Translations under genes and position numbers: made by a program | DNA from: Streptomyces triticagri | Lineage (GTDB): Bacteria > Actinomycetota > Actinomycetes > Streptomycetales > Streptomycetaceae | DNA length: 64,000 nt | NCBI RefSeq assembly: GCF_003429565.1 | Contig: NZ_QUAK01000087.1 | Span: 1-64,000 of the forward strand | Direction of reading: 5' to 3' | Shown: positions 10,405 to 15,053 of the stretch, piece by piece | Numbering within the stretch: position 1 is the stretch's first letter | Layout of the letters: each line of letters begins with the position of its first letter | Notes under the pieces: model-generated | The model's input: only the letters and a program-made list of their open reading frames with translations | Told to the model about the DNA's origin: nothing | Databases searched by the model: none

Positions 10405-11450
10405 AGCTTGGCCACCTTCCGCTGCCGCACCAGATGAATGAAGAGCAGGCCGCCGATGAAGGCCGTGACGATGCCGACCTCGATCTCGGACGGCGGCACC
10501 ACGATCCGGCCCACCACGTCCGAGAACAGCAGCAGGGAGGGGGCGAAGAGCGCCGAGTACGGGAACAGCCAGCGTGGATCGGTGCCGCAGAACGGCCGTA
10601 CCGCGTGCGGGATCATCAGGCCGATGAAGCCGATCGGTCCGCACACCGCGGTCGCCCCTCCGCAGAGCAGGGTGATGGCGACGATGGACAGGACGCGGGT
10701 GCGTCCGGTGTGGGCGCCGAGTGCCTTGGCGGTGTCGTCGCCGAGCGCGAGCGCACCGAGCGGTCCGGAGAGTGCGAGCGCGAGCACGGCGCCGGTGAGG
10801 AGCAACGGCAGCGCGTTGAGCAGCAGTTGGGCGTCGCGGCCGGCGAGCGAGCCGATCGACCAGTGGCGCATGGTCTCCAGTGCGCCGAGGTCGACGAGCT
10901 GCAGGCCGTTGACGTATCCGAAGAGCGCCGCGTTGACCGCCGTGCCGGCCAGGGCGAGCCGGACCGGGGTGGCCGCACGGCTGCCGCCGAGCGCATTGAC
11001 CAGGGTGGCGGCCACGGCGGCGCCGGCCAGCGAGAACCAGAGGTATCCGGAGAAGGTGCCGACGCCGAACACGCTGATCGCGGTGACCACGGCGGCCGAG
11101 GCTCCCGCGTTGACCCCGAGCAGCCCCGGGTCGGCGAGCGGATTGCGGGTCAGGGTCTGCATCAGGGCGCCGGCCAGGCCGAGCGCCGCGCCCGCGGCCA
11201 CCCCGATCAGCGTGCGGGGCAGCCGCAGTTCGCGCACGATCCGGTCGTTCCGGGTGCCGGAGTGGTCGACCAGGGCCGTCCAGACGTCGGAGAGCGGGAT
11301 GCGCTGGGTGCCGACCGCCAGGCCGGCGGCCACCGCGACGACCAGGAGGGCGAGCCCGAGCACCAGACCGGCGATCCGTACGGACCGCCGGGTGCGGCGC
11401 TGTGGCTCCGCCTCGACCCGAGGGGGCGGTGGTGCGGTCGTGGTGGTCAA
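10401..11450 (-). CDS. FecCD-type siderophore ABC permease (first subunit)
   Basis: Membrane subunit (349 residues) of the same importer, FepD-like. The start is probably a TTG at 11450 that overlaps the rfbC stop as TTGA; no better start exists nearby, and this fits the coupling seen through the operon. After a basic N-terminal tail (about 1-22) come roughly nine to ten membrane segments with the family motifs LRLPRTLIGVAAG, GALMQTLTRNPLADPGLLGVNAGAS and GPIGFIGLMIPHAVR (coupling loop). With the neighbouring permease it would form the heterodimeric channel fed by the lipoprotein encoded at 21556-22530, on the other side of the same iron box. Confidence 0.91.
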   Translation of the reverse strand: MTTTTAPPPPRVEAEPQRRTRRSVRIAGLVLGLALLVVAVAAGLAVGTQRIPLSDVWTALVDHSGTRNDRIVRELRLPRTLIGVAAGAALGLAGALMQTLTRNPLADPGLLGVNAGASAAVVTAISVFGVGTFSGYLWFSLAGAAVAATLVNALGGSRAATPVRLALAGTAVNAALFGYVNGLQLVDLGALETMRHWSIGSLAGRDAQLLLNALPLLLTGAVLALALSGPLGALALGDDTAKALGAHTGRTRVLSIVAITLLCGGATAVCGPIGFIGLMIPHAVRPFCGTDPRWLFPYSALFAPSLLLFSDVVGRIVVPPSEIEVGIVTAFIGGLLFIHLVRQRKVAKL

Positions 11451-12070
11451 CGGGATGCCTCCGGCACCGGGTGCGCCTTGTCCGTGAGCGAGTGGCGTTG
11501 CCGCAGGCACTCTTCGTACGTCGGCAGCAGACCGGCGGACTCGGCCTCGGCGAGCATCGGGGCCGCGGCGTCGCGGGGCGAGAGCACCGGGGCGATGTCG
11601 GCCGGCCAGTCGATGCCGATCTCGGGGTCGAGCGGGTGCACCCCGTGCTCGCGGCCGGGCGCGTATCCGGTGGAGCAGAGGTAGACCACGGTCGCCTCGT
11701 CGCTGAGGGCCAGGAACGCGTGCCCGATTCCCTCCGAGAGGTAGACCGCGGTGCCTTCGCGGGCGTCGAGCAGCACGGTCTCCGAACGGCCGTAGGTGGG
11801 CGATCCGGTGCGCAGGTCGACGACCGCGTCGAGCACCGAACCGGCCACGCAGGTCACGTACTTGGCCTGGCCCGGTGGCACGTCCGCGAAGTGGACGCCG
11901 CGCAGTGCGCCGCGCCGGGAGACCGAGCAGTTGGCCTGGGCGAGCTGTGCCGGATGGCCGACCGCCTGCCGGAAGGCGTCGTCGCGGAACCACTCGTGGA
12001 AGCTTCCGCGGTCGTCGTGGTGCACGGGTGGGGTGCGGACCCATGCCCCTTCGATGCTCAGCGAGTGCAC
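11447..12070 (-). CDS. rfbC: dTDP-4-dehydrorhamnose 3,5-epimerase-type protein
   Basis: Cupin-fold epimerase of 207 residues that would convert dTDP-4-keto-6-deoxy-D-glucose to the L-lyxo isomer, the third step to dTDP-L-rhamnose. The catalytic histidine lies in GALRGVHFAD near residue 60, the form seen in actinomycete enzymes such as StrM rather than the RGLHYQ of enterobacteria. The CSTGYAPGREHG stretch near 131-142 and the HPLDPEIGIDWP segment are also typical. The GTG start at 12070 follows AAGGAGCAG and overlaps the end of rfbD by 13 bases. The C-terminal 30 residues extend beyond the core and resemble other Streptomyces members. A monofunctional 3- or 5-epimerase cannot be excluded. Confidence 0.9.
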   Translation of the reverse strand: MHSLSIEGAWVRTPPVHHDDRGSFHEWFRDDAFRQAVGHPAQLAQANCSVSRRGALRGVHFADVPPGQAKYVTCVAGSVLDAVVDLRTGSPTYGRSETVLLDAREGTAVYLSEGIGHAFLALSDEATVVYLCSTGYAPGREHGVHPLDPEIGIDWPADIAPVLSPRDAAAPMLAEAESAGLLPTYEECLRQRHSLTDKAHPVPEASR

Positions 12071-13922: not shown

Positions 13923-13985
13923 GGGGGACTCTCGGTTCGGGCTCCGGCGCGGGCGGCTTGCCGCGGCCGGGGCGGTGGTGTGGCG

Positions 13986-15053
13986 TCAGGCGGTGAGCTG
14001 GGCGCGGCTGTGGTCACCGAGGACCAACCGGTGGGCGCGCGGGGCGCGTTGCACCCCGGTGACCTGCACGCCACGGCCGATCAGGGAGCCCTCGATACGT
14101 CCGGCGTGCTCGATGCGGGAGCCGCCGAGCACGATGGAGAACTCCAGCTCGCTGCCGGTGATCACGCAGTCGTCGTCCACTGAGGTGGAGGGGCCGACGT
14201 ACGAGTCGGTGATGACGCTGTTGCTGCCGATCACCGCGGGGCCGACGATCCTGGACCGGACGACGCTCGCGCCCGGTTCGATCCTGACCCGTCCGACGAG
14301 TTCGCTCGTCTCGTCGACCGTGCCGTGGCGGACCGGCTCGACGCCTTCGAGGACGGACCGGTTGACCTCGAGCATGTCGGTGACGTTCCCGGTGTCCTTC
14401 CAGTAGCCGGTGATCATGGTGGGGGTGACGGTGCACCCCTCGTCGACCAGCCACTGGATGGCATCGGTGATCTCGAGTTCGCCGCGCGCCGACGGCTTGA
14501 TGGAGCGTACGGCCTCGTGCACGGCCGGCGAGAACAGATAGACGCCGACCAGGGCCAGGTCGCTGCGCGGCGCGGCGGGCTTCTCCTCCAGGTCCACCAC
14601 CCGTCCTTCGGCGTCGAGTTCGGCGACGCCGAAGGCGGTCGGGTCGCTGACCCGGGTGAGCAGGATCTGGGCGTCGGGCCGGCTGGTGCGGAACCCGTCG
14701 ACGAGTTCGGTGATGCCACCGACGACGAAGTTGTCGCCGAGATACATCACGAAGTCGTCCTCGCCGAGCCAGTCCCGGGCGATGAGTACGGCGTGCGCGA
14801 GGCCGAGCGGCTTGTCCTGGGCGAGGTAGGTGACGCGGGCGCCGAAGTCGGAGCCGTCGCCGACGGCCGCCTCGATCTCCTGGGCGGTGTCGCCGGTGAC
14901 GATGCCGATGTCGGTGATGCCGGCGGCGACCAGGGACTCGATGCCGTAGAAGAGGACGGGCTTGTTGGCGACGGGGACGAGTTGCTTGGCGGAGGTGTGC
15001 GTGATCGGCCGCAGGCGGCTTCCGGTGCCACCTGCGAGGACGAGTGCCTTCAC
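13986..15053 (-). CDS. rfbA: Glucose-1-phosphate thymidylyltransferase, long (StrD-like) form
   Basis: Activates glucose-1-phosphate to dTDP-glucose. The 355-residue protein starts at a GTG (15053) with the nucleotide-binding LAGGTGSRLRP motif at about 6-16. The sugar-binding EEKP segment falls near residue 158. The region after about residue 240 is a hexapeptide-repeat-like left-handed helix (repeats such as VVRSRIVGPAVIGSNSVI), which makes it the long form found in antibiotic clusters (StrD) instead of the ~290-residue RmlA. It lies 65 bases downstream of the fused ABC exporter gene and opens the sugar block of the iron operon. Confidence 0.94.
   Translation of the reverse strand: MKALVLAGGTGSRLRPITHTSAKQLVPVANKPVLFYGIESLVAAGITDIGIVTGDTAQEIEAAVGDGSDFGARVTYLAQDKPLGLAHAVLIARDWLGEDDFVMYLGDNFVVGGITELVDGFRTSRPDAQILLTRVSDPTAFGVAELDAEGRVVDLEEKPAAPRSDLALVGVYLFSPAVHEAVRSIKPSARGELEITDAIQWLVDEGCTVTPTMITGYWKDTGNVTDMLEVNRSVLEGVEPVRHGTVDETSELVGRVRIEPGASVVRSRIVGPAVIGSNSVITDSYVGPSTSVDDDCVITGSELEFSIVLGGSRIEHAGRIEGSLIGRGVQVTGVQRAPRAHRLVLGDHSRAQLTA

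Follow-up and report, generated by a model that had tools for sequence, protein, structure and literature searches.

The window considered here is a stretch of 64,000 nucleotides from Streptomyces triticagri (NCBI RefSeq assembly GCF_003429565.1, contig NZ_QUAK01000087.1, positions 1 to 64,000 of the forward strand). In this window, four rfb genes are found inside a putative iron operon, together with genes for an IroB-like glycosyltransferase, an IroC-like exporter, an enterochelin esterase and siderophore uptake proteins. It is proposed that this operon encodes a system of the salmochelin type in which dTDP-L-rhamnose is the donor of the C-glycosyltransferase; a probability of roughly 0.8 is given to this reading. 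The proposal rests on comparisons of sequences, gene orders and genomes.

The rfb Genes and the Predicted Sugar

An earlier note on this DNA had placed rfbA, rfbB, rfbC and rfbD together between the exporter and the importer genes, and all four have been identified there:

11447-12070, minus strand: rfbC, dTDP-4-dehydrorhamnose 3,5-epimerase family (PF00908, E 1e-57; TIGR01221, 152.4 bits against a cut-off of 155.75)
12058-12984, minus strand: rfbD, dTDP-4-dehydrorhamnose reductase (TIGR01214, 283.9 bits, cut-off 224.05)
12963-13922, minus strand: rfbB, dTDP-glucose 4,6-dehydratase (TIGR01181, 444.2 bits, cut-off 365.1)
13986-15053, minus strand: rfbA, glucose-1-phosphate thymidylyltransferase, long form (TIGR01208 rmlA_long, 445.9 bits, cut-off 320.25)

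RfbA, RfbB and RfbD thus score above their NCBIfam cut-offs, and RfbC, which clearly belongs to the PF00908 family, falls about 3 bits below that of RmlC. The order rfbC-rfbD-rfbB-rfbA is a complete predicted dTDP-L-rhamnose set embedded in the iron operon. The assignment of RfbA to the long form holds, since its score against the short model TIGR01207 is 195.1 bits (cut-off 360.65). The further idea that the long form marks secondary metabolism had to be given up, as the wall-type loci of Streptomyces fulvoviolaceus and Streptomyces mesophilus described below also encode a long RfbA of 355 amino acids that is 70-71% identical.

L-rhamnose is most likely the sugar, because RfbD lies clearly above the RmlD cut-off, and other 6-deoxyhexoses are possible. 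Two properties of RfbC weigh against L-rhamnose. Its closest solved relatives are ChmJ entries (270 bits), followed by NovW (244 bits), and ChmJ was deposited as a putative 3-epimerase of a D-allose pathway. In addition, the RmlC cut-off was narrowly missed. A sister 6-deoxysugar may therefore be formed, and the donor could be, for example, dTDP-6-deoxy-D-allose or 6-deoxy-L-talose if RfbC were a 3-monoepimerase or if the reduction by RfbD had another stereochemistry. This is considered unlikely, given the RfbD score and the histidine of the GHAF motif of RfbC, which is kept in 13/13 orthologues and is present in NovW and 7pwh, whereas ChmJ has an arginine. This residue may separate the 3,5-epimerase type of activity from the ChmJ type.

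The Cassette in Other Streptomyces Genomes

Fifteen genomes of the cassette type were compared, namely the genome of the window, one sampled genome (G035) and 13 named ones, all with an orthologue of the glycosyltransferase of at least 72% identity. The named loci were retrieved with two N-terminal peptide patterns biased towards the cassette type, and divergent forms are therefore under-sampled. The same ten genes in identical order were found in 13 of the 15, which argues that the placement of the rfb genes is not due to chance. One of the 13, Streptomyces nanshensis, has its cassette split over two contigs (L067 and L091), and adjacency is presumed there.

In the two exceptions, the embedded rfb genes are reduced or missing. 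The cassette of S. fulvoviolaceus has retained rfbA and a remnant of rfbB as its only rfb genes, and that of S. mesophilus has none, the permease genes following directly after the exporter. Both species have a separate rfbA-rfbB-rfbD-GT2-rfbC locus near obg (L086 and L087), in which the family 2 glycosyltransferase (GT2) carries a TarS-linker; this locus is probably of the wall type. A locus of this kind is apparently absent from the genome of the window.

The cassette has also been observed on a plasmid. In Streptomyces rimosus R6-500, pSRP1.2 (L092, record 21392-32069) carries the exporter, the rfb genes, the permeases and the glycosyltransferase. This is a linear plasmid of 198 kb that has been typed as mobilizable, and the esterase on it is a separate copy about 5 kb past the permeases.

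Mantel correlations between the distances of the glycosyltransferase and those of the rfb genes were 0.67-0.83, and between those of the exporter and the rfb genes 0.90-0.97 (p 0.001, 999 permutations). These values fit joint inheritance but are expected of any vertically inherited genes and are given little weight.

Outside Streptomyces, no enzyme of the clade described below was found in two class-wide samples of 394 genomes each, in one of which four candidates per genome were scored. The genome searches scored part of the candidates of each genome, for example 15 of 23 in the genome of the window, four per genome in that class-wide sample and six per genome in the genus sample, so that an absence from them is no proof. 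One match outside Streptomyces was seen in another family of the class (G375), with 42% identity and in a different setting, where two related glycosyltransferases (40-42%) flank a stretch with a 34% match to the EntF query (L101:10836-14949).

The Glycosyltransferase and Its Donor

The glycosyltransferase is encoded on the plus strand:

18992-20140, plus strand: IroB-like glycosyltransferase with EryCIII-like N and C domains, 46.5% identical to IroB over 99%

For these coordinates an ATG start was chosen; the longest open reading frame opens with a TTG at 18902. In the tree, the 15 cassette enzymes and IroB form a single clade (support 100/100) apart from the antibiotic glycosyltransferases. 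When two IroB-type enzymes from Streptomyces were added, a clade of 18 rows was obtained (100/99), which splits into the IroB type (100/100) and, as its sister, the cassette type (93/95). Ten far rows were omitted from the trees, and one row (L024) was removed for an in-frame stop. An alternative tree, in which IroB is joined to nine rhamnosyltransferase-like rows, was rejected (p-AU 0.002).

The residues shared with IroB are concentrated in the N-terminal half, which binds the acceptor in this glycosyltransferase fold. Sixteen positions hold residues that the 15 cassette enzymes share with IroB and that are infrequent among 29 other homologues, and 13 of these positions lie in that half (up to position 172). 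At position 13, a leucine is present in IroB and in all cassette enzymes (15/15), while the 29 others have histidine (25), leucine (3) or aspartic acid (1). The same acceptor as that of IroB and a C-linkage are favoured. The C-glycoside is preferred because the enzyme falls into one clade with the C-glycosyltransferase IroB and has the same leucine in place of the usual N-terminal histidine. The linkage, left open between C- and O-glycoside in the earlier note, can thus be narrowed, with the C-glycoside as the favoured form.

The choice of donor is less straightforward, and several observations speak against dTDP-L-rhamnose. UDP-glucose is reportedly the donor of IroB, the closest characterised relative. 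IroB and the 15 cassette enzymes all have the donor-loop motif GADRPxNA, so that the sequence is compatible with UDP-glucose too. Also, the enzyme of S. mesophilus carries the cassette donor loop though its operon is without rfb genes; the cassette of this species thus works, or at least persists, without them. It could then be argued that the enzyme uses UDP-glucose like IroB and forms salmochelins, and that the rfb genes serve another purpose or have been kept by an accident of the operon. The identity to IroB (46%), the single clade and the shared ADRP loop agree with this alternative, which is nevertheless judged to be quite unlikely in view of the donor half of the enzyme and of the genome comparisons given below.

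Between the cassette type and the IroB type, 21 fixed differences were found in the N-terminal half and 10 in the C-terminal, donor-binding half. At 8 of these 10, the cassette type carries the residue that is most frequent among 19 other glycosyltransferases; at w230, the IroB type ties. At w291, a threonine is present in the cassette type and in 19/19 of the others, and an asparagine in the IroB type. The two enzyme types are thus set apart in their donor halves, and the pattern fits a history in which the cassette enzyme would have kept a dTDP-sugar site and the IroB line would have changed.

Two candidate markers were abandoned. A glutamic acid in the donor loop distinguishes UDP- from dTDP-sugar users in plant and macrolide glycosyltransferases; as a test it failed here, as the residue is absent from IroB too. 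The ADRP of the donor loop was dropped as a marker for rhamnose, being common to IroB.

Predicted Rhamnose Supply and the IroB-Type Sister Cluster

A match to RmlD over the cut-off is present in all 15 cassette genomes, as a single copy in 14 and as two copies in Streptomyces cacaoi. In an even sample of the genus, such a match was found in 54 of 121 genomes, four cassette genomes included, and thus in 50 of 117 non-cassette genomes. In the genome of the window, one of 12 matches to the wider Pfam family passes the RmlD cut-off, and this is the rfbD of the window; likewise, the one RmlB match at E<=1e-50 is the rfbB of the window. At these thresholds, no second RmlB or RmlD was found in this genome. 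That both exceptions among the cassette genomes have an RmlD elsewhere is suggestive only, given the background of 50/117.

Among 392 genomes of the genus, at least 10 enzymes of the clade were found, seven of the cassette type and three of the IroB type (G289, G549 and G743). These three are 59% (over 272 amino acids), 63.7% and 63.4% identical to enteric IroB, respectively, and 49-50% identical to the enzyme of the window. In their stretches, iron boxes accompany the genes for the glycosyltransferase, exporter, esterase, permeases and binding protein, and entA adjoins in two of the three. No rfb gene was matched in the 20-kb stretches at E<=1e-8, and RmlD over the cut-off was found in none of the three genomes (0/3), the best scores being 126 bits in G549 and about 54-55 bits in the others.

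Two points temper this contrast. The assembly of G549 is fragmented, and it has two RmlD-like matches below the cut-off (126 and 116 bits). For independent genomes, the RmlD distribution (15/15 against 0/3) would have a probability of 1 in 816; these genomes are not independent, and the figure is uncorrected for relatedness. Still, the use of UDP-glucose by the cassette enzyme is opposed by the retention of rfb genes in 13 of 15 cassettes and their absence from the IroB-type sister clusters, by the RmlD distribution, and by the other rfb set that both rfb-deficient cassette genomes own. With the only RmlB and RmlD of its genome lying in the window itself, a dTDP-6-deoxyhexose, as the earlier note had predicted, is the best-supported donor.

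The three IroB-type glycosyltransferase genes (L113, 9439-10536; L114, 9831-10928; L100, 10551-11357) encode proteins 59-64% identical to enterobacterial IroB, with an IroC-like exporter and enterobactin genes alongside, and close relatives of the enteric iroBC genes are thus present in soil bacteria. The IroB-like gene of G289 is broken (L100:10206-11411); the start of its N-terminal part is in a different frame and a coding stretch is missing, which could reflect a pseudogene or an assembly fault.

Enterobactin as the Likely Acceptor

A predicted enterobactin synthase cluster (entA-C-E-B-F) is present in the genome of the window, on a contig (C144) other than that of the cassette. It contains entA (TIGR04316, 335 bits), the isochorismate synthase gene entC (TIGR00543, 293 bits), entE (TIGR02275, 733 bits, over the cut-off) and a 210-amino-acid open reading frame at the position of the isochorismatase. 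An EntF-like non-ribosomal peptide synthetase (NRPS) of 1312 amino acids, with the domains C-A-T-TE, aligns end-to-end with EntF, and its score of 928 bits does not reach the EntF cut-off of 2400. Iron-box-like sites precede entA and are also present close to the EntF end.

All 15 cassette genomes have an EntF orthologue with 63% identity or more, although in S. cacaoi the match covers part of its length (63% over residues 17-842). Among 19 unselected genomes, one has such an orthologue (G013, 78%) and four more have weaker matches (44-60%). By coordinates, EntF shares a contig with the cassette in 7 of the 15, at a distance of no more than about 13 kb, and in S. mesophilus the binding-protein gene is followed by entA.

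Enterobactin and linear, methylated or oxidised relatives have been described from ethyl acetate extracts of the cassette-bearing Streptomyces varsoviensis, as given in the available parts of the article (PMC10188961). No glycoside of enterobactin is reported in those parts of the same article, in which "rhamn" is absent and "glycosyl" occurs only in the introduction and in a reference (PMC10188961), and this counts against a rhamnosylated product. A full-text literature search for rhamnosylated enterobactin or a salmochelin from Streptomyces gave no result, which is weak evidence, as most subscription journals are outside its coverage.

A second siderophore-type locus was observed in the same genome (C235:34001-54000, L062). 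It encodes a salicylate synthase (TIGR03494, 457 bits), an aryl-AMP ligase, NRPS and polyketide synthase modules and ATP-binding cassette (ABC) exporters, and looks salicylate-based.

Operon Neighbours and Putative Iron Control

The remaining features of the two arms are as follows:

9337-10404, minus strand: FecCD/FepG-type permease 2 (PF01032; iron-enterobactin permease NF007759, 311 bits, cut-off of 422 not reached)
10401-11450, minus strand: FecCD/FepD-type permease 1 (Fe(3+)-siderophore permease NF007760, 330 bits, cut-off of 428 not reached; PF01032 in frame)
15119-18808, minus strand: fused double ABC exporter, IroC-like, 1229 amino acids, with two ABC_membrane and two ABC_tran stretches
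18814-18832, no strand assigned: iron box TTAGCTTAGGCTAAGCTAA, palindromic, between the divergent arms
20137-21450, plus strand: enterochelin esterase, Fes/IroD-like (NF007758, 247 bits, cut-off 222; 34.6% identical to IroD)
21556-22530, plus strand: siderophore-binding protein (PF01497; weak match to the enterobactin binding protein NF008200, 58.8 bits, cut-off 205)

Permease 2 was profile-scanned as a longer open reading frame (9340-10644), and the exporter is 45.3% identical to IroC over 92%, in two pieces. From the exporter downward, the spacings on the minus arm are 65, 63, -22, -13, -4 and -4 bp, and these tight spacings and overlaps make a single transcript likely. No gene for an importer ATPase was found beside the permeases in the window, where 8100-9340 holds a response regulator and another open reading frame; no dedicated search was made elsewhere. 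A group of binding protein, ATPase-like and permease genes near the enterobactin genes of the same genome was met in passing.

The iron box has two mismatches to the consensus TTAGGTTAGSCTAACCTAA. It is the sole match in the window, with none in 100 shuffles, and each of the 14 other cassette loci likewise has a box between its arms (at most 5 mismatches). The divergent arms thus appear to be an iron-regulated operon with a putative iron box at its promoter. Only 5 bp separate the box from the annotated start of the exporter (18808); the true start may therefore be situated more internally, or the transcript may have almost no leader.

This arrangement bears on a further alternative, in which the rfb genes would provide the rhamnose of a cell-wall or surface polymer, with their position in an iron operon being incidental. 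It would agree with the finding of no RmlB or RmlD in the genome besides the window's copies, and with related rfb loci elsewhere that adjoin a wall-type GT2 enzyme with a TarS-linker. The iron box and the overlapping genes argue against it, as do the lack of a wall-type glycosyltransferase in the cassette and the RmlD count of just 54 in 121, according to which rhamnose is no general need of the genus. This alternative is regarded as highly improbable. The earlier note had held that its donor would be refuted if these were the only wall-rhamnose genes of the genome and were expressed regardless of iron; they are the only rhamnose genes found there, and the iron box and operon position would oppose an iron-independent use in the wall. 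TIGR01556 gave no match over its cut-off in this genome, which is little informative, as the model also found 0 of 14 controls.

Proposed Mechanism and Significance

In the proposed system, iron starvation would cause the iron repressor to leave the shared box, and both arms would be transcribed. RfbA, RfbB, RfbC and RfbD would convert glucose-1-phosphate to dTDP-L-rhamnose, from which the IroB-like enzyme would transfer L-rhamnose to the catechol rings of enterobactin, probably through a C-glycosidic bond. This acceptor would be produced by the entA-C-E-B-F cluster on another contig of the genome. The glycosylated product would be exported by the IroC-like pump, and its ferric form re-imported by the binding protein and the two permeases. 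Finally, the esterase would open the ferric siderophore and free the iron.

The evidence leans towards two sister lineages of enterobactin C-glycosyltransferases with different donors. The IroB lineage, in Enterobacteriaceae and rarely in Streptomyces, would use UDP-glucose and is without rfb genes, whereas the cassette lineage would have its own dTDP-L-rhamnose genes and form C-rhamnosyl enterobactins, an unreported siderophore class; the enterobacterial iroBC genes would share ancestry with the Streptomyces clusters. In gut pathogens, the glucosylation of salmochelins keeps enterobactin usable when others would capture it. If the proposal is true, the rhamnosylated counterpart from soil bacteria would represent a siderophore class new in its chemistry, with its own sugar supply under iron control, and the swapping of sugars would prove to be a tactic used generally beyond animal hosts. 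Within one genus, the two sister clusters also form a natural pair for learning how IroB-type enzymes choose their donor, and S. rimosus and S. varsoviensis, both of which bear the cassette, are culturable.

Comparison with Known Systems

The antibiotic GT1 enzymes SnogD and CalG3 and the rhamnosyltransferases 9ke1 and 9ke2 belong to the same EryCIII-like family as the enzyme of the window (38-42% identity) but, unlike it, fall outside the IroB clade. With the RmlABCD pathway of dTDP-L-rhamnose, all four enzymes are shared; the window differs in the iron-operon setting, in the RfbC score narrowly below the RmlC cut-off and in the long RfbA. The IroB-type cluster of Streptomyces has the glycosyltransferase, exporter, esterase, permeases, binding protein and iron boxes in common with the window, but is without rfb genes in its stretch and without RmlD over the cut-off in its genome, both of which the window has.

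The iroA (salmochelin) system of Enterobacteriaceae shares with the window an IroB-like glycosyltransferase (46%), an IroC-like exporter (45%), an esterase (34.6% to IroD), an iron box and an enterobactin synthase in the genome. An outer-membrane receptor is not expected in a Gram-positive bacterium, unlike in the host of iroA. Compared with iroA, the window has rfbABDC, a periplasmic-type binding protein and permeases as additional members of the same cassette, and its product is predicted to be rhamnosyl rather than glucosyl.

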